NCBI GenBank assembly: GCA_031262745.1
Contig: JAISHE010000028.1
Location: forward strand, 1 to 49,852
Reading direction: 5' to 3'
DNA: 49,852 nucleotides
Source: Culturomica sp.
GTDB taxonomy: Bacteria; Bacteroidota; Bacteroidia; Bacteroidales; Marinifilaceae
This document shows positions 19,747-37,208 of the stretch, piece by piece (the stretch's first letter is position 1; each line of letters begins with the position of its first letter). The notes beneath the pieces are model-generated. The model did no database searches. It was given only the letters and a program-made list of their open reading frames with translations, and was not told the DNA's origin. The translations under genes were made by a program, and so were the position numbers.

Positions 19747-19826
19747 TACTCGCCACTACATGGGGGAATTGCATGACTGCGAACCTGCTTTCTAAGGGTT
19801 TATACATCAAAAAAAGGACTTTTTAT

Positions 19827-19910
19827 AGCAAGTTTAATGCTTTTTTGGTGGAGTTTAAAGTCGACTCTTTTTTGTCTAAACCCGACTCTTTTTGCTTTAA
19901 AGTTTCTATA
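19827..19910 (+). repeat. Array with 21-nt period (array A, short copy, 4 units)
   Basis: Units at 19827-19847, 19848-19868, 19869-19889 and 19890-19910 carry variants of GTTTAAAGTCGACTCT. The segment 19814-19860 matches the minus strand of 37147-37192 with only about two mismatches, so this is a shortened, inverted relative of the 36970-37179 array. One frame gives heptad-like peptides (FNAFLVE, FKVDSFL), but there is no plausible gene. Confidence 0.6.
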
Positions 19911-20098: not shown

Positions 20099-21367
20099 AT
20101 GAATGATACAACTATGGCATATCTTCCGAGAATAACCGATGTAGAACTGGAGCGCAAGCTCTCTTCTTCGGGTGCGGTGCTTATACGTGGACCGAAAGCG
20201 TGTGGCAAAACAGAATCTGCAACACAGTTTGCCCACAGTATTTTGCAGATGGATCAAGATCCGCAAGTACCTGCGTTGATGGGCGTGGATCCGAAGCGTC
20301 TTTTGCTGGGTGAAACTCCGCGCCTCATAGATGAATGGCAAGTTCAGCCCGAAATTTGGAACTACGTCCGCCATGAAGTTGACTACCGCAAACAGGAAGC
20401 GCAGTTCATACTTACCGGTTCGGCAACGCCCGAAAAGAAAAATAAATCGGAAGCAGAGACTAAGATGCACTCCGGAGCAGGGCGATTTACCAAACTTGAT
20501 ATGCGCACCATGTCGTGGCAGGAGTTGGGATTTTCAACCGGTAAGATTAGTCTTGAAAAGCTATTCAACGGTGAAAAGATAAATATTATTGACACGTCGA
20601 TGGATATAGAACAAATCGTTGAACGTATCATAATCGGAGGTTTCCCTGCGTTAATAGGCAAAAAACTACAGGCGGCAATGGATTTAAACAGGGCTTACGT
20701 TGATTTGTTGGCTGAAGTTGATATTAGTCGCGTTCCCGAAATTAAGCGCGACCCGATAAAGGTTCGTGCCTTGTTGCGCTCATTGGCTCGAAATACGGCT
20801 ACGCTTGCCGAAATCAAAACATTCGAAGCCGACACAGGTATTTCACGCCCTACTGTCTATGATTACCTTAGTGCGCTTGAACGCTTGATGATAGTAGAAG
20901 ACCAACCGGCATGGGATGCCCATCTGCGCTCATCCGCTTCTTTGCGAAAAACTCCCAAACGGCACTTTACCGATGTCTGTTTGGCTGTGGCGGCACTCGG
21001 TGCAACAAAAGAGTCCCTGCTTGCCGATATGAAATATACGGGATTCCTTTTTGAATCACTGGCTATACACGAATTAAGAGTTTACGGACAAGCCATCGAT
21101 GCAAAGGTATATCACTACCACGACTCGAATAATTTAGAAGTCGATGCCATTGTTCAAAAATATAACGGCGATTGGAGCGCATTCGAGATAAAGTTAGGTA
21201 TCGGGCAAATCGACGAAGCGGCAGCAAATCTGCTCAAACTCGCATCTGTGGTGGATGCGAGTAAATCATCTGCTCCGAAATCACTCAACATCATCACCGG
21301 CACGGGCATCAGTTACACCCGCACCGACGGAATAAATGTTATTTCGCTTGCTTCGTTGGGGATTTAA
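20099..21367 (+). CDS. AAA ATPase with DUF4143 domain (copy 1)
   Basis: Walker A reads GPKACGKTESA near residue 32. A Walker B-like segment LIDEWQ follows, then a sensor-like FILTGSATP. A winged-helix-like middle contains GISRPTVYDYLSALERL. The C-terminal DUF4143 domain contains a PD-(D/E)XK-like core (LEVDAIVQ ... WSAFEIKLG). Length is 422 residues. The family is widespread in Bacteroidota and archaea with no settled function; nuclease or transposition-related activity is only a guess. It differs clearly from the two other copies here. Triplicated 23-bp repeats lie at its 5' side, and repeat R plus a 21-nt array follow its stop, so it sits in a repeat-rich accessory island. Confidence 0.85.
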   Translation: MNDTTMAYLPRITDVELERKLSSSGAVLIRGPKACGKTESATQFAHSILQMDQDPQVPALMGVDPKRLLLGETPRLIDEWQVQPEIWNYVRHEVDYRKQEAQFILTGSATPEKKNKSEAETKMHSGAGRFTKLDMRTMSWQELGFSTGKISLEKLFNGEKINIIDTSMDIEQIVERIIIGGFPALIGKKLQAAMDLNRAYVDLLAEVDISRVPEIKRDPIKVRALLRSLARNTATLAEIKTFEADTGISRPTVYDYLSALERLMIVEDQPAWDAHLRSSASLRKTPKRHFTDVCLAVAALGATKESLLADMKYTGFLFESLAIHELRVYGQAIDAKVYHYHDSNNLEVDAIVQKYNGDWSAFEIKLGIGQIDEAAANLLKLASVVDASKSSAPKSLNIITGTGISYTRTDGINVISLASLGI

Positions 21368-21452: not shown

Positions 21453-21460
21453 GTTACCTC

Positions 21461-21700
21461 GCTGTCCTCAGCGAGTCCCTCACTGTCTTCAGCGAGTCTT
21501 TCGCTGTCCTAAGCGAGCCTTTCACTGTCCTCAGCGAGTCTTTCGCTGTCTTCAGCGAGACTTTCGCTGTCTTAAGCGAGACTCTCGCTGTCTTAAGCGA
21601 GCCTTTCGCTGTCTTAAGCGAGACTCTCACTGTCTTAAGCGAGTCTCTCACTGTCCTAAGCGAGCCTCTCACTGTCCTCAGTGAGCGACTCGCTGTCTTA
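21461..21700. repeat. Tandem array with 21-nt period (array B, 11 units plus 9 nt) reaching into the FISUMP stop codon
   Basis: Eleven exact 21-nt units begin at 21461 and every 21 nt to 21671, and a partial unit covers 21692-21700. Several units join to give the 13-nt palindrome GCGAGACTCTCGC, spaced by TGTCTTAA, so the array can form a row of hairpins. Both strands have open frames of about 70-85 codons made only of heptads (for example SLKTARV on minus, CLKRDSR on plus). This follows from a period divisible by three; there is no start signal and no domain. The last TTA of the partial unit is the stop codon of the minus-strand FISUMP gene. Confidence 0.85.
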
Positions 21701-24481
21701 ATTTAGCAAACAACGGACGGACATGCCGATCGACTTATGGCGGATATTACGGTAGGTTGAAGACGAACTAACGTACAGAGCCCGGTCCCACGCACTGGAA
21801 GAATCATACTCTGATGACGACCACCATAATCCGTACGTACCAAAGTAGCTACCCCAAATACCACCCGGAAGACCGCTCCACCCGGTACTGTTAGTTCCAT
21901 TCATTGTTTCACTCTTTAACTTTGAACCGTAACCCGAGTCGCGACTCCAATGATCTCCGCTGCTATTTACCGAATTCTCAGGCATCCCAATAGATCTCTC
22001 CAAAGTCTTAAAATCCCCATCGCTCGGAACATGCCAACCGTCAGGACATATACCCTGAACATGATCACTACCGTCAGTAGCGTATTTTATATCGGTTGTA
22101 TTTTCTCCATAAACAGTTTCCCACCAATTATAAAGTCCTCCGTAAGTATCACAATTACTTTCATTATTATCATAGCATGTCCTTTGAATACCCGCAGTAT
22201 TTTGTGTACTTGTCCCTCCATTTACACACTCGCCTATATTCATATTCTTTGCCATCCAACACTGCTCGCCGATTTCTACTGTGGGATAAGATTGACCATC
22301 GCGAGAATCTTTAAAACAATCGCCACACTTAGCAAATGATTTGTTGAGATTTGTTACGTTAACACTCAAATCGGCTGTGCTCACACAACCTGCTACTGCC
22401 ACTTCACATTCCACAGTTACGGTGCCTTCCGTTCCATCCGTGAAATCACTGTAAGAAGTCGTGTACTTTGCCCCTGTTTTTGTGCCCGTTTGAGTTATCC
22501 ACGTGAAAGTAGGTGTGCTTGAAGTGTAAGGGACACTTGCCGTTACTGTTGAGGTAATACCGCAATTAAGCGTTGCGCTCGCCGAACTAAGCGAAATAGT
22601 AAGATTAGGTACAGTTGTTGAAACCTCAGTCGTTGTAGCTTCGCCCAAAGTCGTGATAGCTTTGCGTTTGAATTTGAATATCCGGCTCGCTTCGGTGAAA
22701 CTTGCCGGTACATAAGTCAACGATTCCGAAACAGCATCCGGAACTAATTCCCAAGCAGCCGACCCTTTCTGCACATACCAAACGTAGGTTATCCTCATGT
22801 TCATTGCCACGCCGTTCCACGTTAGGCTTCCATTTACGCTATCCCTAACATTAATCCCATTCGTACAGCCTGTCGAAACTTTAATTATGCCCGCATCAAC
22901 TGCCACGCTTCCGCCAAACGTATGCACGGCTCTAAAACCCATTGTGCTGTCCCTTTTGTCTGTAACGGTGCTGTGGGTTCTGTCCGAAATTCTCAACTCA
23001 TCCGTGTTTGCAGTTGCAAAACTGCCGCCCTTAACAATAAACGAAGACATTGCATTGGGCCAAATACTCGTGGAAATATCGGAAGTTGCGGCAGCCGTGA
23101 GTTCACCGTTTCCGTGAGAATCATAAATGTTGGAAGTGTTGAAATAGCTTCCGGCATCAACGGAATAGCAAATCTCCGCCACATTGCCGCTCATTTCCAT
23201 CAAACCCCAAAACGTCGCTCCCGCCTGCGCCTGCGTAGAACTCGAAGTGCCGAAACTCGCACTGCGAACAGGTCCGAAATCAGGATTATTATAGTTAACA
23301 TTAGTCGCCGCCGAATTCGGTTTCTCACTAAATGTGCCGAGGTTCAACAATCCTGTCTGTGCATTCAAACCGTTCAAACTGCTTGCCGAGTTCCAAACGT
23401 ACTCGCCTGCAACAACTTCCTGCGGATACGGCTTTCTGCAAGCCTTTTCATATTCCAACTCACTCATCGGACGCAAACAAGCCCAATCACAATAAACCAA
23501 CATATCAATAGGAGTGAGGTAATTACATGCTATGCACTGACCGTCGTCCTCTCCAAAATAAGGTGCTACGGGATTAAGATTGCAACCGAAAATCGCAGGC
23601 TGACTCGAAGTGTTGGAAAGCACACAAATACCATTGCGATAGCTTGGCTGTAACTTATCGCCGAAAACGTACTCACCGGCTTTTAATTCGTCAAGATTGT
23701 TGCCGATGCGTGCCTTTTGTTGAGCACGGGTGAGAGTGTTGAGGAAACCCACATATTGCTCCTGACTCACTTCATATTTCATGCAGTAGAAGCCCTTATA
23801 TCCTTTGGGGAAAGTAGCAGGTAAATTTCTCACCGCACCGACAGTGCCGGCAGTAACGGGATAAACACTCAACGCATCTTCGCTGTTCACGGCAATCGGT
23901 GCACCGATACTGTTGCCAAGACGATTAGGCGTTGCTCCGTCGCCAAGGTAATAACCGCCATAAGGGATGTAGACCATCTCTATTGCCTGAAACGAAATGA
24001 AAACGTTATTTTTATTGATATCCTGTTCGGTTACACTACTGAGATTCACCAACGGAACTTTGATAGTAAACGTTTGATTATTAACTTTTCCACCACCATT
24101 GCCGTCACGCATAAGGAACAAACCGCCCGCATTATTGGCATTGATGTTTCCCGCATCATAAGTGAAGCCCGGAGGCATTATATGACCTGTGGGTGAAAGC
24201 TTTAAATGATTCCATGCACCTTTGGCACCCTTGCTGTACTTACCAAAAACCCAAACAGCATCCCAGTTAAATTCATCTCTCCACGAATTGTCCCAAGATA
24301 ATGAGATTGAAATCACTACCGTGTCGCCGTTTACAACAACATCCGGTTTTGAATTAAATCTCACATTATTCCCAAAAACACCTGTGCTCAGCAGAATACA
24401 AGCACAAATTAAGATCTGCGAAAAAGGATTCTTCCCAAATCCTTTTCTCTTTTTTGTTTTTTCCACGTCCATTTTATACAT
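21698..24481 (-). CDS. Exported FGE-sulfatase-like / FISUMP-domain surface protein
   Basis: This 927-residue protein (919-927 depending on start) has a hydrophobic export segment at about residues 20-38 (ILICACILLSTGVFG). An N-terminal region (about 40-170) is typical of Bacteroidota SUMF1-like proteins. An FGE-sulfatase domain (about 170-515) runs from YIPYGGYYLGDG to DSTMGFRAVHTF. Ig-like regions rich in Ser/Thr follow (about 520-715), and a C-terminal Fib_succ_major (FISUMP) domain (about 725-927) contains GQSYPTVEIGEQCWMAKNM, CPDGWHVPSD, LWWSSSEYD and the end SVRCLLN. It is probably a cell-surface or secreted ligand-binding protein rather than a catalytic formylglycine enzyme. The gene is monocistronic, and its stop codon is provided by a tandem repeat. 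The second Met (24472) is an equally likely start. Confidence 0.85.
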   Translation of the reverse strand: MYKMDVEKTKKRKGFGKNPFSQILICACILLSTGVFGNNVRFNSKPDVVVNGDTVVISISLSWDNSWRDEFNWDAVWVFGKYSKGAKGAWNHLKLSPTGHIMPPGFTYDAGNINANNAGGLFLMRDGNGGGKVNNQTFTIKVPLVNLSSVTEQDINKNNVFISFQAIEMVYIPYGGYYLGDGATPNRLGNSIGAPIAVNSEDALSVYPVTAGTVGAVRNLPATFPKGYKGFYCMKYEVSQEQYVGFLNTLTRAQQKARIGNNLDELKAGEYVFGDKLQPSYRNGICVLSNTSSQPAIFGCNLNPVAPYFGEDDGQCIACNYLTPIDMLVYCDWACLRPMSELEYEKACRKPYPQEVVAGEYVWNSASSLNGLNAQTGLLNLGTFSEKPNSAATNVNYNNPDFGPVRSASFGTSSSTQAQAGATFWGLMEMSGNVAEICYSVDAGSYFNTSNIYDSHGNGELTAAATSDISTSIWPNAMSSFIVKGGSFATANTDELRISDRTHSTVTDKRDSTMGFRAVHTFGGSVAVDAGIIKVSTGCTNGINVRDSVNGSLTWNGVAMNMRITYVWYVQKGSAAWELVPDAVSESLTYVPASFTEASRIFKFKRKAITTLGEATTTEVSTTVPNLTISLSSASATLNCGITSTVTASVPYTSSTPTFTWITQTGTKTGAKYTTSYSDFTDGTEGTVTVECEVAVAGCVSTADLSVNVTNLNKSFAKCGDCFKDSRDGQSYPTVEIGEQCWMAKNMNIGECVNGGTSTQNTAGIQRTCYDNNESNCDTYGGLYNWWETVYGENTTDIKYATDGSDHVQGICPDGWHVPSDGDFKTLERSIGMPENSVNSSGDHWSRDSGYGSKLKSETMNGTNSTGWSGLPGGIWGSYFGTYGLWWSSSEYDSSSAWDRALYVSSSSTYRNIRHKSIGMSVRCLLN

Positions 24482-24800: not shown

Positions 24801-24899
24801 CTACGATGAAACCTATCTAAAAAATTAGCCCCCGCTACAAGTAAATGTAACGGGGGCTATTTTCTAACTTAATTAATTTCAGGCAGTTTTTAACCTTCC
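24801..24899. repeat. ~98-bp direct repeat, left copy (downstream of DUF4143 copy 2)
   Basis: This is almost identical to 26260-26356, with two single-base indels and a few changes near the end. It begins at CTACGATGAAACC, includes a whole terminator, and ends 3 nt before the ATPase stop codon. The right copy likewise ends 10 nt before the susD stop. The pair frames the ATPase gene exactly. Confidence 0.85.
24826..24859 (-). terminator. Terminator of DUF4143 copy 2 (duplicate of the susD terminator)
   Basis: TAGCCCCCG (24826-24834) pairs with CGGGGGCTA (24851-24859). On the minus strand a T-run follows directly, giving a textbook intrinsic terminator about 45-75 nt after the ATPase stop. Confidence 0.8.
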
Positions 24900-24902
24900 T
24901 TA

Positions 24903-26111
24903 TTATTCTTCTAACAACCAATCTATTATATTTCTTTTCTGTATCCCTTTGTACGTTGTTGCAGGTTCAACATCGGTAGTTAATAAAATTCTGCGGTTAA
25001 AATCGTTTACCAATTCAAACGGTCGTATTTCACGCTCAAACGTACTATTCTCTTTGGTTGTCCAAGCCACTTGTATATATTCGGTTTCGTTTTGGGGCGT
25101 TCGTATCACAAAATCAATTTCTGTATTGTCTGCTTTGCCAATATGCACGCTATTTCCTCTTCGTAGGAGTTCCAAGTAGACAATATTCTCGAGATTATGT
25201 CCTAAATCCTGACTGATTTTGTCTCCGAGAAAATATTTTTTCAATCCCAAATCAACAGTGTAATATTTCTCTTGTGTTTGCAAAAGCCCTTTTCCTCGCA
25301 AATCAAAACGCCGTACTTTGTAGAACATATACGATTCAACAACGGCATCAATGTAATTTGCTACGGTATGGTGTGAAATTGCAATATTATTATTCGTTTT
25401 CAGATAGTTGGCGATTTTCTTGGTGGTAATGACCGAACCGACCGAGTCGAAAAGAAACGAAAGTGTTTTGTTAAAATTGTCTTCATTTTTCCATTTATTA
25501 CGCACCAAAACATCTTTTTGAATAATGTTTTGAATAACATCAAGAATGTAATTTCGTATCATATTTTCGGGCAAATCGAAAATTCCCGGCATTCCGCCCG
25601 TGTCCAAATATTTGGCAAACAACAAATCGGTGCGCGAAATATCCGTTTGTGTCAAAAGATATTCTTTGAACGAAAACGGCAAAACATGAATGGAAATGTA
25701 ACGCCCCGTTAGTAAAGTACCGAGTTCACTTGAAAGCAAATAAGCATTGGAGCCGGTAACATAAACATCAATGTTTGGTTTGACATAGAGTCCGTCCACA
25801 AGACGTTCAAATTCTTTAACTTGCTGTATTTCGTCAAGAAAAACATAGCACCGCTTGTTTGTATCCAACCGATTAACAATATCATAATACAAAGCATCAA
25901 GATCATTCAAGTATTTGCGATTTTCGTAATCTTCAAAATTGAGGAATATAATTTGATTTTCTTTCACGCCATCGGTGCGCAAATAATCTCTAAACATTTG
26001 CATTACGGTTGATTTTCCGCAACGTCTAACGCCTGTAAGCACTTTAATCAGGTTTTTATCCCGCAACGCTTTCAGCGTGTCCATATAATCTTTTCGTTCG
26101 ATCTGTATCAT
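24903..26111 (-). CDS. AAA ATPase with DUF4143 domain (copy 2)
   Basis: Walker A is GVRRCGKSTVM (residues about 27-37), Walker B is CYVFLDEIQ, and the sensor region is VYVTGSNAYLLSSE, followed by TGRYISIHVLPFSF. The middle is helix-turn-helix-like. The C-terminal DUF4143 part has a PD-(D/E)XK-like end (LELLRRGN ... EIDFVIRT ... YIQVAWTTKE). Length is 402 residues. The biochemical role is unknown. It lies between two ~98-bp direct repeats that duplicate the 3' region of susD, so it looks inserted downstream of the susCD operon. Its 5' leader contains a perfect 11-bp hairpin. It is only distantly similar to the copies at 20099 and 31867. Confidence 0.88.
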   Translation of the reverse strand: MIQIERKDYMDTLKALRDKNLIKVLTGVRRCGKSTVMQMFRDYLRTDGVKENQIIFLNFEDYENRKYLNDLDALYYDIVNRLDTNKRCYVFLDEIQQVKEFERLVDGLYVKPNIDVYVTGSNAYLLSSELGTLLTGRYISIHVLPFSFKEYLLTQTDISRTDLLFAKYLDTGGMPGIFDLPENMIRNYILDVIQNIIQKDVLVRNKWKNEDNFNKTLSFLFDSVGSVITTKKIANYLKTNNNIAISHHTVANYIDAVVESYMFYKVRRFDLRGKGLLQTQEKYYTVDLGLKKYFLGDKISQDLGHNLENIVYLELLRRGNSVHIGKADNTEIDFVIRTPQNETEYIQVAWTTKENSTFEREIRPFELVNDFNRRILLTTDVEPATTYKGIQKRNIIDWLLEE

Positions 26112-26126
26112 AATACTTTATATTAT

Positions 26127-26160
26127 AGCCCAAACTTTCTGTTTTTAATAAGTTTGGGCT
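26127..26160 (-). promoter_or_regulatory. Stem-loop in the leader of DUF4143 copy 2
   Basis: AGCCCAAACTT (26127-26137) pairs perfectly with AAGTTTGGGCT (26150-26160) around a 12-nt loop, 16 nt upstream of the ATG. It could be an operator, an attenuator, or an end of the inserted unit. The sequence between it and 26259 shows no clear promoter. Confidence 0.5.
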
Positions 26161-26259
26161 GTAAAAATACTGATTATTTTAGAAATCGGAGCAAAACATA
26201 TATATTTCTTTTGGAAGAGAAAAAATGAATCAAAAGAGTAAACTTATTTTAGGATAAGA

Positions 26260-26356
26260 CTACGATGAAACCTATCTAAAAATTAGCCCCCGCTACAAGT
26301 AAATGAACGGGGGCTATTTTCTAACTTAATTAATTTAAAGGCAGTTTTTAGCCTTC
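26260..26356. repeat. ~98-bp direct repeat, right copy (downstream of susD)
   Basis: This is the partner of 24801-24899. The copy next to susD is presumably the original, because it supplies that operon's terminator. Confidence 0.85.
26284..26316 (-). terminator. Terminator of the susCD operon
   Basis: TAGCCCCCG and CGGGGGCTA arms with a 15-nt loop lie 50-80 nt after the susD stop and are followed on the minus strand by a T-rich run. Confidence 0.8.
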
Positions 26357-26366
26357 TGTTTTTGTA

Positions 26367-28031
26367 TTATAATCCACTTGGGTTCTGTACGATGTTCGGA
26401 TTAATCGAAGTGGAAACATACGGGAATGGGAAATACTCATGCTTACCGGGTATAAAACCTGTTGTACCTTGGTTAGGATTGCTATACTCAACGTAGATAC
26501 GATGTTTCGGCTCTCCTTTGGTGAAGAATGCATCATAAGCAGTAGGTATATTTTTACCATTATTCACAATACCTTGCGTATTACCCCAACGTACCATATC
26601 CGGGAAGCGAACACCTTCAAGCCACATTTCGTAGCTCTTTTCGTTCTTTACTTCATCCAATGTAAGTGAAGAAGATATATGAGCCGAGCCTGCACGCGTT
26701 TGAATATCTCTAAGACACTGGAGACCGAGACCGTCAGAGTCGCTGGTTTGTGCACAAGCTTCTGCATACATCAATAAAACTTCTGCATAACGGAAGATAG
26801 TGAGGTTCTTGAAACCATACCAACCCATTTCGTTGTCCTCAGCCCAAGGAACGAACTTGTTAGCAAAATATTTATCAAATCCGTAAAGACCTGTAGGGTC
26901 TTTGATACCAATTTGATCAGATGTTTCAAGCTCTTCGCGAGTCAAACCTGCACCGCCGTTCCATGCTATCTCGTAGAGGAATTCCTCATCTGTGAGGAAA
27001 GTAGCTTTACGACGAGGAGAATCTCCATCGTTAGCCAACATACGTTCGGCAAAATCCTTACGAATAGAGTGAGCACCCCAGCCATCAACTCCAATAAACG
27101 AAGGACGAGTAGCCAACTTGTCGGTACGCCAGTTCCAGCACTGAATCCACATCCAAGATGTACGCTGAATCTTATTGTCCCAGTCGCCGACAGCCGGATT
27201 ATTAATCACGTTAGCTTGGAAAATCATTTCTTCGCAAAGGTCTCCCGATGCGTGAAACAAATTTGCCCAACGATTAGCAGGAACGAGTTCGTACTTATCT
27301 GATTCGATCACTTGTTTGAGATTTCTTTTTGCGCCTTCATAGTCCCCTTTAAAGAGGCGAGCCTTACCGGCTACTGTGAGAGCGAATCCCTTAGTTACCT
27401 TAGAAGGACCTACCTTATCCTGCGGATTGGCACGTTCATCAAGGACGCCAACTACAGCTTCCGCTTCTGTTGCACACCATTCCAAAAGCCCGTCATGTCC
27501 ACCTTCGTAGTTCCCGGGTTTGTCGGTTCCGGTAAGAAGGTGATCAACCAATGGAGGGCAATCCCAACCAATAGCGAGCATCAGATAAGACCAAGCACGA
27601 AGTGTGCGAGCTTCACCACGAACTCTTTCCTTAGTAGGTGATTCACCACTAAGATTGTCGAGAATAAGATTACAATCGTAGATCACACCATACAAGCCCA
27701 AATATGCATTCCTGATAACTTCGTTCTGCGAGTCGTAACGGAATTCGTTGAGCTGTGCCATGTAATCGTTGTCACCATAAAAGTTACCTGCTGCCAACAT
27801 ATCATCACCCGCTTCATTGAAAAGAACGGGAAGAGCTACATAAATACCCTCATTACCGGCAATGTTCAAACAAAATGACTGGTAGAGGTTGTTGATTGCG
27901 TTCTGTGCATCATCATCGGTCTTATAGAAATTGTCAGCCGAGATAACACCCTTCTGGTCAATGTCGAGACGACCCTCGCAAGCACCGAAGAGCAATGCTG
28001 CACCTAAAAGGGAAAATATTATTTTTTTCAT
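26367..28031 (-). CDS. SusD/RagB-family nutrient-binding outer-membrane lipoprotein
   Basis: SusD proteins form the lid of the SusC transporter and bind glycan or peptide at the cell surface. The lipoprotein signal MKKIIFSLLGAALLFGAC gives Cys19, followed by a surface-export-like GRLDID stretch. The N-terminal part (DNFYKTDDDAQNAINNLYQSF) and TPR-like repeats fit RagB/SusD. The C-terminus FIPGKHEYFPFPYVSTSINPN, with the nearby NPNIVQNPSG, is diagnostic. Length is 554 residues from the ATG at 28031; a TTG two codons upstream is unlikely to be used. It follows susC by 43 nt. The ligand cannot be read from sequence. Confidence 0.95.
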   Translation of the reverse strand: MKKIIFSLLGAALLFGACEGRLDIDQKGVISADNFYKTDDDAQNAINNLYQSFCLNIAGNEGIYVALPVLFNEAGDDMLAAGNFYGDNDYMAQLNEFRYDSQNEVIRNAYLGLYGVIYDCNLILDNLSGESPTKERVRGEARTLRAWSYLMLAIGWDCPPLVDHLLTGTDKPGNYEGGHDGLLEWCATEAEAVVGVLDERANPQDKVGPSKVTKGFALTVAGKARLFKGDYEGAKRNLKQVIESDKYELVPANRWANLFHASGDLCEEMIFQANVINNPAVGDWDNKIQRTSWMWIQCWNWRTDKLATRPSFIGVDGWGAHSIRKDFAERMLANDGDSPRRKATFLTDEEFLYEIAWNGGAGLTREELETSDQIGIKDPTGLYGFDKYFANKFVPWAEDNEMGWYGFKNLTIFRYAEVLLMYAEACAQTSDSDGLGLQCLRDIQTRAGSAHISSSLTLDEVKNEKSYEMWLEGVRFPDMVRWGNTQGIVNNGKNIPTAYDAFFTKGEPKHRIYVEYSNPNQGTTGFIPGKHEYFPFPYVSTSINPNIVQNPSGL

Positions 28032-28074
28032 AATCAATATACTTTTTTTTAAATTTTCAATAGAGCTATCTCAA

Positions 28075-31000
28075 TTAAAAGGCAATACTTGCACCGAATG
28101 TGAACTTCTTCATAGTGGGGAAAGTTCCGATATCGAAGCCGGCACCACCATTATTAGAAGTTGTTGCGGTTTCCGGATCCATACCCGGGTACTTAGAGAT
28201 CGTGAAGAAGTCATCCAAACTTACGAAAACGCGTAGGTTCTTGACAGCCACTTTTTCAGTGAGTTCTTTAGGCAAGGTATAACCCAATTGGATCTGTTTG
28301 AACTTGAAGTAAGCACCGTTGAACATTGAGGCACTTGAACTCCAGAAGTTATTATCCGTAGCAACCTTTGCGGGATCCGGCATAGATTTACCGCTACCGG
28401 GTCCTGTCCAAGCATTGTCCATATAGTACTTCAAAGAGTTACGCATCGGACTATCTGCACGATAAAGAATGTTGAAGATCTTATTACCTGCAACACCGGT
28501 ACCGAATACAGAGAAGTCGAAGTTCTTATATTCAAGGTTAATAGTGATACCGTAAGTAAGTTTCGGAATAGCACTACCGATATCCGTCAAATCCTCATCC
28601 GACAATTCTGAAGAAGATACGATGTTACCTTCCTTATTGCGGAACAGAGGTGCTCCTGTTTCTTTGTCAACACCTGCATAGTCGTATGCACGGAAATACC
28701 AAATAGCGTGACCTTTCTCAAAAGCAGTACTTACTTTATTGTTTGTACCGTCTACACCACCTTGAGCTGCAGGGATGCGAGGCATATCTTTGTTTAGATA
28801 AGTAACCTCGTTCTTCAAAGTAGAGAAATTACCGGCAACGCTATATCTGAGGTCGCCGATACGGTCTCTCCAATTGAGTTCAACTTCAAGACCTTGATTG
28901 TTTATTTTACCGGCATTATCTACATATGATTGTGTGGTTACTTCCGGAGACAATGGTACATTTGTAACAAGAAGATCTTTAGTAGTCTTGTTATAATAGT
29001 CGATACCCACTGTCAAACGGTCGTTTAAGAAACGCATATCAAGACCTAAGTCAATCTGTTCGGATGTTTCCCATGTAAGATTGGGGTTTGCATAACCGTT
29101 GGGATAAGAACCGTAGTTTAGCGTAGCATCATTTCCATATTGATACCAAGCAGCATTGTAGTTGATCGGCGATTGATATGGGTAACCACTTAGCACGTTG
29201 ATGTTACCGTTGCGACCCCAAGAAGCACGAATCTTAGCGAAAGATAAAACATCGCTATTAACATTGTCCTTGAAGAATTTCTCATTGCTGATTGTCCAAC
29301 CTGCCGAAACAGAGGGGAATTTACCCCAACGCTTGTTAGCCGGAAGTTTCGACGTATCAAATGCGTCGGCACGATAGTTGAATTGCACACTGTAACGGTT
29401 ATCGTAATTATAGATCAAACGACCAAAGTAGGAAATACTTGTAGCATTACCCGGCGCATTACCGATGTTCTTTGTCGTTGTCGAAGCTGAATTCACATAG
29501 TCAACATATCTAAAGTTAGCGGCATCACCGGAAAGAATCTTGTTGCCACCCGTACCGGTAGCACCGGCTGTTACATTGTCCCAACGATTTTCGATATATG
29601 ACATACCGACCATTGCACCCACATTGTGCTTATCGAAAGACTTATTGAAGTTTGCAAAGTTTTCCCACTGAAGATACTGACCATTGTTAGCAGTAGCATT
29701 AATTGAATAGTCCGTAGCATTAGCCTGACCGTTCAGATAATATGGTGAGGCATATTCATGAGAATTATTCTGAGAAAGGCGATAAGAAACGCGAGATGTG
29801 TACACGAAACCTTCGATGGGAGTGAAATCAATATAGGCTGTTCCGCGAACGGTGTAACCTCCATTGGTTGCATCACGGCGATCGCGTTGCAGGAGAGGGT
29901 TACCGTTATCGTCCTTATAAAACTTTGAAGTAGCGTAATACTTGCCGTTAGGAGCTCTGAGGATGGTTGAAGGATTCGTATTCCATTGTGTCTTCATATC
30001 CGTCGTGAAATCGTCAATACTATCAAAATACACCGGAGTAAGAGGATCAAGCATAAGAGCCGGAGCCAACATAGAACCATAAGCACTTGATTGAGTAACG
30101 CTACGAATAAACCATTTTTCAATAGAAGTGTTAGTACCTACCTTAATCCAACTATACAATTTATAGTCTGCATTAAGTTGACCGGTATAACGGGTGTAAA
30201 CATCCTTTTTGCCGCGTACAATACCATCATTATTAACGTAGTTTAAAGAAGCGAAGAAATGACCTTTGTCATTACCGTCTTGGAAAGTAAGAGAGTGCTG
30301 AGTTGCCCAGCTGTTGCCGAATACTTCCTTTACCCAATCGGTATTTTGAGGATTGTCATAGTCAACACCATTAGCCTTAGTAAGAGTTACCATGTCGAAA
30401 CCGGACAATTCCTTGTATCTAATCCAGTCTTTTGCACCGAAAAGTTCAGGAGTTCTACCAAGACTCTGGTTGATAGCTTTAAAAGAGTAAGTGATTTTTG
30501 GACTTCCATCCATTCCGTTACCTGTCTTTGTTGTAACAAGAACAACACCGTTACCGGCTTCAGCACCATAAATAGCAGCCGAAGCAGCATCCTTCAGAAT
30601 CTCTATAGACTCAATCATAGAAGGATCCAAATACTGGATGTTGTCAACTTTCAAACCATCGACGATCAAAAGGGGCCCGAGGTTACCTGAGTTAGACGAA
30701 TAACCGCGAATACGGATTTGAGCACCTGTACCCGGAGCACCGGATGTGTTCAAAATTTGAACACCGGCAGCTTTACCTTGAAGGGCAGCAGCAGCATCAC
30801 TCGTAGCGAGACTCTTGATTTCGTCTGCGTCTACAGAGGCTACAGCACCGGTTAAGTCGCTCTTACGCTGAACACCGTAACCGATAACCACAACCTCATC
30901 AAGAGATTTGGCATCATCCTGCAATACAATATTAAAATTAGTATTGCCGTTTAAAGTAACTGTTTGACTCTCATAACCAATGAATGAGATAACAAGTTTG

Positions 31001-31212
31001 CCTTTTGAAGAAACGTTCAACGAGAAATCACCGTTAGCATCGGTAATCGTACCGTTTTGTGTTCCTTCTTCAAGGACAGTAGCACCAATTAATACCTCTC
31101 CCGTAACATCTTTAACATTACCGGTAACGGTAACGTTCTGAGCATACGTGAATAAAGGGATTAAAAACAACATAAACAAAAGCCCTAAAGGCTGAAAACA
31201 ATTTTTTTTCAT
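28075..31212 (-). CDS. SusC/RagA-family TonB-dependent outer-membrane transporter
   Basis: It imports oligomers across the outer membrane using TonB energy. The protein starts with a signal peptide (about 1-24, ending FTYAQ), then a carboxypeptidase-regulatory-like domain (about 28-105; VTGNVKDVTGEVLIGATV). The SusC-typical junction SLDEVVVIGYGVQRKSDLTG, plug and 22-strand barrel follow, ending with the aromatic terminus FTFGASIAF. Length is 1045 residues from the ATG at 31212; an ATG three codons upstream is possible. It is the first gene of a susCD operon with no HTCS, ECF sigma or hydrolase immediately beside it. Its upstream region has repeated GTAACA motifs. Confidence 0.96.
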   Translation of the reverse strand: MKKNCFQPLGLLFMLFLIPLFTYAQNVTVTGNVKDVTGEVLIGATVLEEGTQNGTITDANGDFSLNVSSKGKLVISFIGYESQTVTLNGNTNFNIVLQDDAKSLDEVVVIGYGVQRKSDLTGAVASVDADEIKSLATSDAAAALQGKAAGVQILNTSGAPGTGAQIRIRGYSSNSGNLGPLLIVDGLKVDNIQYLDPSMIESIEILKDAASAAIYGAEAGNGVVLVTTKTGNGMDGSPKITYSFKAINQSLGRTPELFGAKDWIRYKELSGFDMVTLTKANGVDYDNPQNTDWVKEVFGNSWATQHSLTFQDGNDKGHFFASLNYVNNDGIVRGKKDVYTRYTGQLNADYKLYSWIKVGTNTSIEKWFIRSVTQSSAYGSMLAPALMLDPLTPVYFDSIDDFTTDMKTQWNTNPSTILRAPNGKYYATSKFYKDDNGNPLLQRDRRDATNGGYTVRGTAYIDFTPIEGFVYTSRVSYRLSQNNSHEYASPYYLNGQANATDYSINATANNGQYLQWENFANFNKSFDKHNVGAMVGMSYIENRWDNVTAGATGTGGNKILSGDAANFRYVDYVNSASTTTKNIGNAPGNATSISYFGRLIYNYDNRYSVQFNYRADAFDTSKLPANKRWGKFPSVSAGWTISNEKFFKDNVNSDVLSFAKIRASWGRNGNINVLSGYPYQSPINYNAAWYQYGNDATLNYGSYPNGYANPNLTWETSEQIDLGLDMRFLNDRLTVGIDYYNKTTKDLLVTNVPLSPEVTTQSYVDNAGKINNQGLEVELNWRDRIGDLRYSVAGNFSTLKNEVTYLNKDMPRIPAAQGGVDGTNNKVSTAFEKGHAIWYFRAYDYAGVDKETGAPLFRNKEGNIVSSSELSDEDLTDIGSAIPKLTYGITINLEYKNFDFSVFGTGVAGNKIFNILYRADSPMRNSLKYYMDNAWTGPGSGKSMPDPAKVATDNNFWSSSASMFNGAYFKFKQIQLGYTLPKELTEKVAVKNLRVFVSLDDFFTISKYPGMDPETATTSNNGGAGFDIGTFPTMKKFTFGASIAF

Positions 31213-31305
31213 AAAAACCATTCGTTAATTTAATTTAAAAATTGATAAACTCTGTTTTTCATGATGCAATGATAGTCTAAGTTTCGTGCACTTCTAAGAA
31301 ATTTG

Positions 31306-31835: not shown

Positions 31836-31866
31836 TTATGAAGTTAATTAATTGTGTTGCAATAAT

Positions 31867-33078
31867 ATGATGTATGTAAATAGAACTATTTCGGAGAATA
31901 TTTTAAGCATATCTAATACGTTTAAGGTGCTTTTAATAAACGGAGCAAGGCAAATCGGCAAAACGACTTTGCTAAAGCATCTGTCGGAACATAACAGAAA
32001 GTATGTTACGCTTGATAATCCTACCGATCTCTTACTTGCTAAAACAGATCCCAAAGGCTTTTTTGATATTTATTCGCCACCTGTGGTTATTGATGAAATT
32101 CAATATGCTCCGGAACTTTTCCCATATATCAAAATGATAGCCGACAATACGCAGGAAACCGGACTGATTTGGCTCACAGGATCTCAACAGTATAATATGA
32201 TGCAAGGCGTGTCGGAATCATTGGCAGGACGAGTGGCAATAATAGACTTATTCGGGTTTTCAATTTACGAAACGGAACAAATGGCTTCAGAACAAAAACC
32301 ATTTTCACCGGTTAATAAACCGATGAATATACTTAAATCAAAAAACGTCAGCGACACCTTCAAAATTATTTGGCAAGGTTCATTTCCGGCTGTGATAAAT
32401 CTTGATGCAACAACCCGTAGAACTTTCTACGATTCATATATAAGAACTTATATAGAAAGAGACGTTAGACAAATAATAAATATCGGAAATGAAGTGGCGT
32501 TTATTACCTTTATGAAGGTGATAGCTGCAAGAACGGCACAGCAACTCAATATTGAAGATATTGCACGCAATGTAGGTATCGCAACGGGAACAGTGAGAAA
32601 CTGGCTTTCGGTTCTGAAAACTTCCGGACTTGTCTATATGTTGCAACCATATTTTAAAAACACAACAAAACGCCTAACTAAAACGCCTAAACTTTACTTC
32701 GTTGACTCCGGACTTGCAGCCCACCTCGCAGGTTGGACAACTCCCGAAGCCCTTGAAACAGGAATTTCGGCAGGAGCGTTTTTTGAGACTTTTGTGGTGG
32801 CTGAAATACTAAAATCTTACTACCATAACGGAGAAACTCCGCAATTATACTTTTACAGGGATGATAAAGGGAAGGAAATTGACCTGTTAATCTATCAAAA
32901 CGGGAAATACTATCCCATCGAAATCAAGAAACATTCAACACCGTCCTTATCTGATATTTCTGCATTTAATATATTAGCCAAAACGGAAGAACTCGGTGAA
33001 GGTTGTGAAATTTGTTTGACTAATGAAGTACAACCTTTGTTACCAAGTGTAAATGCAATATCAATATGGAACATTTAA
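31867..33078 (+). CDS. AAA ATPase with DUF4143 domain (copy 3)
   Basis: Walker A is GARQIGKTTLL, Walker B is PPVVIDEIQY, and IWLTGSQQYNMM precedes the LAGRVAIIDLFGFS motif typical of this family. The helix-turn-helix segment is VGIATGTVRNWLSVL. The DUF4143 C-terminus includes KLYFVDSGLAAHLAG and a PD-(D/E)XK-like core: FYRDDKGKEIDLLIY, then YYPIEIKKH. Length is 403-404 residues from the ATG at 31867 or 31870; a TTG at 31852 is less likely. The function is unknown. The core KEIDLLI...IEIKK is the best preserved of the three copies. It is monocistronic, between a structured leader and a terminator. Confidence 0.88.
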   Translation: MMYVNRTISENILSISNTFKVLLINGARQIGKTTLLKHLSEHNRKYVTLDNPTDLLLAKTDPKGFFDIYSPPVVIDEIQYAPELFPYIKMIADNTQETGLIWLTGSQQYNMMQGVSESLAGRVAIIDLFGFSIYETEQMASEQKPFSPVNKPMNILKSKNVSDTFKIIWQGSFPAVINLDATTRRTFYDSYIRTYIERDVRQIINIGNEVAFITFMKVIAARTAQQLNIEDIARNVGIATGTVRNWLSVLKTSGLVYMLQPYFKNTTKRLTKTPKLYFVDSGLAAHLAGWTTPEALETGISAGAFFETFVVAEILKSYYHNGETPQLYFYRDDKGKEIDLLIYQNGKYYPIEIKKHSTPSLSDISAFNILAKTEELGEGCEICLTNEVQPLLPSVNAISIWNI

Positions 33079-36969: not shown

Positions 36970-37179
36970 ACTGCAAGATTAGAGTTTAACTCTCAGAGAG
37001 TCGAGTTTAGACGAAAAAGAGTCGACTTTAAATAAAATAGTGTTGACTTCAATTCTATTTGCTATGAATTTATAGCAAATAGAGTTAAACTTGGTTCTGA
37101 AAGAGTCAAGTTTAGACCTCAGAGCTTTAAAGTCGACTCTCAAAGCTTTAAACTCTACCAAAAAAGCATTAAACTTGCT
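36970..37179 (-). repeat. Array with 21-nt period (array A, long copy, 10 units)
   Basis: Ten contiguous 21-nt units run from 37179 down to 36970 on the minus strand, built from variants of TTTAAAGTCGACTCT and AAACTTGACTCT. The first unit is identical to 19827-19847, and the flanking AAGGTCTTTTTAT also matches that locus. A 60-codon frame of heptads (FKALRVD, FKALRSK, LDSFRTK) crosses it, but it has no promoter or start context. Between the lepA promoter and the array (36831-36969) nothing recognisable is seen. Confidence 0.75.
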
Positions 37180-37208
37180 ATAAAAAGACCTTCGTTTGCT
37201 GAATTAAG

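Follow-up and report, generated by a model that had tools for sequence, protein, structure and literature searches.

How a single ATPase gene came to lie between two long direct repeats, each of which carries a transcription terminator, is the question raised by a susCD locus in the window studied here, the whole stretch of 49,852 nucleotides from Culturomica sp. The window stems from a metagenome-assembled draft genome of 78 contigs and 2.12 Mb (G000), and all features of the locus lie on the minus strand. A susC-type TonB-dependent receptor gene (28075-31221; Pfam Plug, CarbopepD_reg_2 and TonB beta-barrel) is followed by susD (26367-28037; Pfam SusD_RagB and SusD-like_3), the stop codon of which (26367-26369) is separated by 10 nt from the first repeat copy with its terminator (26260-26356). 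Next come a relic that resembles one end of a MITE or IS (TCTTATCCTAAAATAAGTTTACTC...; 26217-26259), a putative ATPase promoter region in which a Bacteroidota-type -7 element, TATTTTTAC, can be read directly (26161-26195), a leader palindrome of the form AGCCCAAACTT-N12-AAGTTTGGGCT (26127-26160) and the ATPase gene itself (24903-26111), the only open reading frame between the repeats. The second repeat copy with its terminator (24801-24899) follows the ATPase stop codon (24903-24905) at a distance of 3 nt, and the presumed inserted segment, as delimited by the repeat boundaries, would comprise 1,360 bp (24900-26259). The next gene downstream, outside the unit, encodes FGE-sulfatase and Fib_succ_major domains according to a domain search (21698-24481), and an imperfect 21-bp tandem array is located just past its stop codon (21459-21701).

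When the window was compared with itself by BLAST, 24801-24898 paired with 26260-26356 at 94.9% identity over 99 columns (E=3e-37) in direct orientation, giving a repeat of ~98 bp (97 and 99 bp in the two copies). This agrees with the initial annotation, which had reported near-identical segments flanking the ATPase at 24801-24899 and 26260-26356, spaced by 3 and 10 nt from the ATPase and susD stop codons, and the full intrinsic terminator that it had read in each copy was confirmed by folding (-34 and -37.5 kcal/mol). Genome-wide use of the terminator sequence, which the initial annotation had named as a refutation, was not observed: exactly two copies were returned when all 2.12 Mb of the assembly were searched, and a dispersed terminator family was thereby ruled out. 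Across the genus, family and order, 59 further genomes gave no copy of the repeat, save for one weak 28-nt match, nor did the search at these ranks turn up the window locus in an empty state. The nearest susCD relative found (G220; susD 80% identical, from another family) has another terminator and other downstream genes 3′ of susD, and its flank contains neither the repeat nor the ATPase. The copy next to susD is probably the native one, and the repeat may have been copied from the susD region, as had been proposed; given that the flank in G220 lacks both repeat and ATPase, either copy could be the native one on this comparison.

The ATPase consists of 402 amino acids, with an AAA_14 domain fused to DUF4143 (Pfam), and matches the PADLOC model PDLC04787 (PDC-S01) over its full length (residues 3-401, E=3.3e-142). 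The predicted structure (pLDDT 85) matches archaeal STAND-type ATPases, Apaf-1 and plant NLRs, and the fold is accordingly predicted to be STAND-like. PDC-S01 has been described as joining an ATPase to a domain of PD-(D/E)XK type, an architecture shared by the window protein, as ranking fourth in frequency among prokaryotic defence systems and as widely transferred horizontally, even across domains; validation is pending for most PDCs, and the defence activity of PDC-S01 itself has not been validated (PMC12988326). In PADLOC's terms the window gene is a candidate solo anti-phage defence gene. The window holds two more PDC-S01 genes, both from other subfamilies (20099-21367 and 31852-33078; PADLOC), and the 2.1-Mb genome has 13 DUF4143 genes that score above the cut-off. 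The former of these two PDC-S01 genes adjoins one copy of a 36-62 bp sequence, possibly a MITE, that lies in inverted orientation at 19799-19889 and 36997-37207. No mode of insertion or mechanism of spread was found described for PDC-S01 in the literature searched, and nothing on mobility was found in the open literature mentioning DUF4143.

Close relatives of the window ATPase are horizontally mobile: proteins 96, 92, 91 and 79-81% identical to it are encoded in unrelated contexts in metagenome-assembled genomes filed under other families of the Bacteroidales, those at 91-96% in other termite-gut Bacteroidales. DNA homology with the relatives begins about -77/-92 from the ATG, runs through the stop codon and then ends, so that the shared segment consists of the promoter, the palindrome near the ATG and the open reading frame, without a terminator. 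This fits the earlier suggestion of a cassette that reuses host terminators. The promoter region is conserved in the alignments, its -7 element in the relatives being TANNTTTG. A strong palindrome (score of at least 16) was detected in 71% of 38 subfamily members, as opposed to 17% among the remaining DUF4143 genes and 12% among controls, and its sequence varies between clades while the pairing is kept; located at the transcription start, it could act as an operator or as a 5′ UTR hairpin. At one locus (L223) the leader palindrome is present three times around the gene, the third repeat copy being the palindrome itself. Many PDC-S01 genes have no bracketing repeat, and G080 harbors two near-identical 1.7-kb PDC-S01 units at different sites (L118 and L119), with sharp ends and no such repeat.

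Bracketing was surveyed at DUF4143 loci, with all other open reading frames in the same DNA as controls, as direct repeats located within 500 bp on both sides (E<1e-4), at genes with 150 bp or more of non-coding sequence in each flank. An initial round over 60 loci (4/63 DUF4143 genes, 7/231 controls, p=0.26) ruled out that all DUF4143 genes are bracketed, and the excess proved to be concentrated in the subfamily of the window gene, where 10/23 are bracketed as opposed to 6/83 flank-matched control open reading frames (p=1e-4); the control rate is 4-7%. Of the other DUF4143 genes, 5/35 are bracketed. The repeat sequence is unlike from locus to locus. A copy-number search ruled out that every bracketed relative represents a target duplication, as much of the subfamily's excess consists of repeats present in many copies, namely attC arrays (L228), a MITE (L028) and dispersed sequences (L226, L230, L235, L029, L244 and L232). 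Two-copy, locus-specific repeats are found in the window and at L034, L042, L241 and L223, and with these cases alone, set against all control hits, the statistic weakens to 5/32 versus 15/349 (p=0.02). Repeat length is 98 bp in the window, 22-176 bp at other Bacteroidota loci and ~470 bp on plasmids. The distance from repeat to stop codon was dropped as evidence, because control hits are also close to stop codons, and a similarity between the sequences that follow the stop codon in the window and at L029 was set aside as too weak (uncorrected p=0.002, seven comparisons).

Several sister cases resemble the window. At L034 the 3′ end of murG, including its stop codon, is duplicated and present in two copies, and L171 has a 34-bp two-copy repeat of unrelated sequence. 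At L097 (G063) a 176-bp 3′ end of an endonuclease/exonuclease/phosphatase-type (EEP) gene is duplicated; the duplicate begins 2 nt after the DUF4143 stop codon, the downstream copy keeps the gene ending found in relatives, and G022, G031 and G064 each have a single, contiguous copy of the EEP gene. L124 was ruled out as a clean case, having a diverged, partial manA copy. The other site with a single-copy comparison lies next to dnaE (genus g10, L205-L208): G010 is empty, with one 52-bp copy, G031 has two 52-bp gene-end copies around a DUF1016/YhcG gene (PDC-S02), G064 has a deleted form, and G062 has a DUF4143 gene within PDC-S02 remnants. Once counted for DUF4143, this site was reassigned to PDC-S02, and the series indicates that PDC-S02 leaves the same trace and that sites can change their cargo. 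The closest parallel to the window is in another phylum, on plasmids of Acinetobacter, of which 169 records carry PDC-S01. There, an HNH (GmrSD-like) gene and DUF4236/BREX genes enclose a site that is occupied by PDC-S01 in some plasmids and by a Fic pair in others (L284-L298), and the PDC-S01 gene behind the HNH gene likewise matches PDLC04787. A diverged copy (87%) of the last 270 bp of the HNH gene begins 23 nt after the PDC-S01 stop codon at L292, and at L289 the copied pieces reach from about -270 to +198 relative to the HNH stop codon, terminator included. On two plasmids that have a Fic gene instead, next to the same HNH and DUF4236 genes, no repeat was found. Allele comparison, tried as a way to assign the copies to donor or recipient, was uninformative for the EEP and HNH genes.

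Taken with these cases, the window repeats probably arose by insertion of the ATPase unit with a long target duplication, in what would have been a single event. A mobile solo PDC-S01 unit, bringing its own promoter and leader palindrome but no terminator, would have entered the spacer behind susD, and the terminator region of ~98 bp would have been duplicated on entry, so that susD kept its terminator and the newcomer gained one. The earlier proposal, in which the gene either brought along or generated a duplicate of the local 3′ sequence, is the best-supported reading and is borne out in part, by the mobility of the relatives and the duplications at sister sites, whereas the step in the window itself is inferred. 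Evidence against it comes from the vain search for an empty window site, from the many-copy repeats behind much of the subfamily's excess, from the bracketed controls and the unbracketed PDC-S01 genes, and from the dnaE repeats, which were made for another gene. The most likely route would be that host functions joined an incoming molecule, perhaps a circle, through staggered or replicated ends; a route of this kind is more likely than a dedicated transposase, since PDC-S01, PDC-S02 and restriction-modification enzymes are unlike proteins and yet leave the same trace. Neither a transposase nor terminal inverted repeats were found between the window repeats, only the one MITE-like end at the left junction, and complete MITEs with ends related to it occur at L028. 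Owing to this relic, the shared unit may have been only part of what came in, or a second element may have been involved.

The view that no element with this layout has been described was mistaken: for restriction-modification genes, insertion with long target duplication (ILTD) is already on record (Nobusato et al., 2000, as cited in passages of PMC3031569 and PMC1643837), and the pattern of that study in H. pylori is set out in a passage of the latter. The likeness lies in one gene or small unit with defence-type cargo between long direct repeats that are variable in length and made of local sequence, and in the window, too, the repeats are of local, not element-specific, sequence. The window is nevertheless filed as a variant of ILTD because its cargo is PDC-S01, a single ATPase/PD-(D/E)XK-like gene in other organisms, and not a restriction-modification gene; a further difference is that several of the present cases duplicate the 3′ end of the preceding codirectional gene and/or its terminator. 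With insertion sequences, composite transposons and MITEs the window shares the MITE-like end, but its unit has no transposase or second end, and the duplication is far longer than the target duplications of insertion sequences.

The chief rival would have the repeats in place before the ATPase came, as happened next to dnaE: an earlier insertion of another solo gene or of an IS or MITE would have duplicated the terminator region and later been replaced, with the repeats serving as homology arms. This is rather unlikely for the window. Precedent comes from the 52-bp repeats next to dnaE, which were made for PDC-S02 and later occupied by a DUF4143 gene, and from the Acinetobacter slot that takes PDC-S01 or Fic, and the MITE-like end at the left junction would suit an earlier occupant. 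Yet between the two copies in the window no remains of a different gene were recognised, the right repeat starts 3 nt after the ATPase stop codon, and the Fic-bearing Acinetobacter slots have no repeats.

Tandem pairs of susCD are common in Bacteroidota, and the terminators could be remnants of a tandem duplication of susCD or of the operon, the second copy of which was lost or replaced. Each repeat copy does follow closely behind the stop codon of a gene, but there is no susD relic between the copies, the homology stops short of the stop codons, and bracketing is likewise seen with the ends of murG, EEP and HNH genes, which makes such a history improbable.

Lower still stands the idea that PDC-S01 genes with their leader palindromes are autonomous single-gene mobile elements, whose protein, perhaps acting at the palindrome, would insert its own gene behind other genes with long, variable duplications and thereby acquire a host terminator; this appears very doubtful. 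Its mechanistic core, that the ATPase/PD-(D/E)XK-like protein itself carries out the insertion, duplicating the target over long and variable stretches, and would thus be a new kind of transposase, is a shade more doubtful again. Such a role would accord with the conserved unit and its leader palindrome, with repeated independent insertions and with the motif ExDFV..YIQ, which is kept in the window subfamily and resembles a PD-(D/E)XK nuclease site. This motif lacks the catalytic lysine, however, which is replaced in the window clade (YIQVA), no conserved termini are present at the junctions, and many copies have no duplications; moreover, the same trace left by PDC-S02 and restriction-modification genes, which encode unrelated proteins, points to a host route.

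Highly improbable, too, is an integron reading of the locus, with the ATPase as a gene cassette and its flanking repeats as attC sites. Cassettes and CALINs likewise present a single gene between repeats of 50-150 bp, and a relative of the window gene (L228, in G333) is a true cassette, where ~130-bp repeats of attC form recur between same-strand open reading frames; a tyrosine recombinase of G333 (L266) reaches 200 bits against the integron-integrase model, below the 265-bit cut-off. The window repeat, in contrast, occurs in two copies, has no attC core boxes (R''/R') and folds as a terminator, and no integron integrase was seen, the hits in the draft genome of the window being only weaker and Xer-like. 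In G333, a member of the Bacteroidales, integron-type arrays with attC-form repeats in one orientation extend over L249-L252, and one of their cassettes is PDC-S01. The least credible account is an artefact of the metagenome assembly, which the 78-contig draft would permit, but the copies differ by 5% and their longest exact shared runs are 31, 28 and 18 nt, which makes a join at an identical repeat unlikely, and similar layouts are found in complete plasmids.

For the biology of these genes, insertion of the ATPase unit with a long target duplication would have several consequences. The duplicated gene ends would protect the neighbour and at the same time supply the newcomer with a terminator. 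If solo defence genes repeatedly insert by ILTD, as restriction-modification genes do, a shared host route for the 'embedding' of such genes becomes testable. The duplicated ends may then serve as homology arms by which defence genes are swapped, as is suggested by the dnaE site, where PDC-S02 gave way to PDC-S01.
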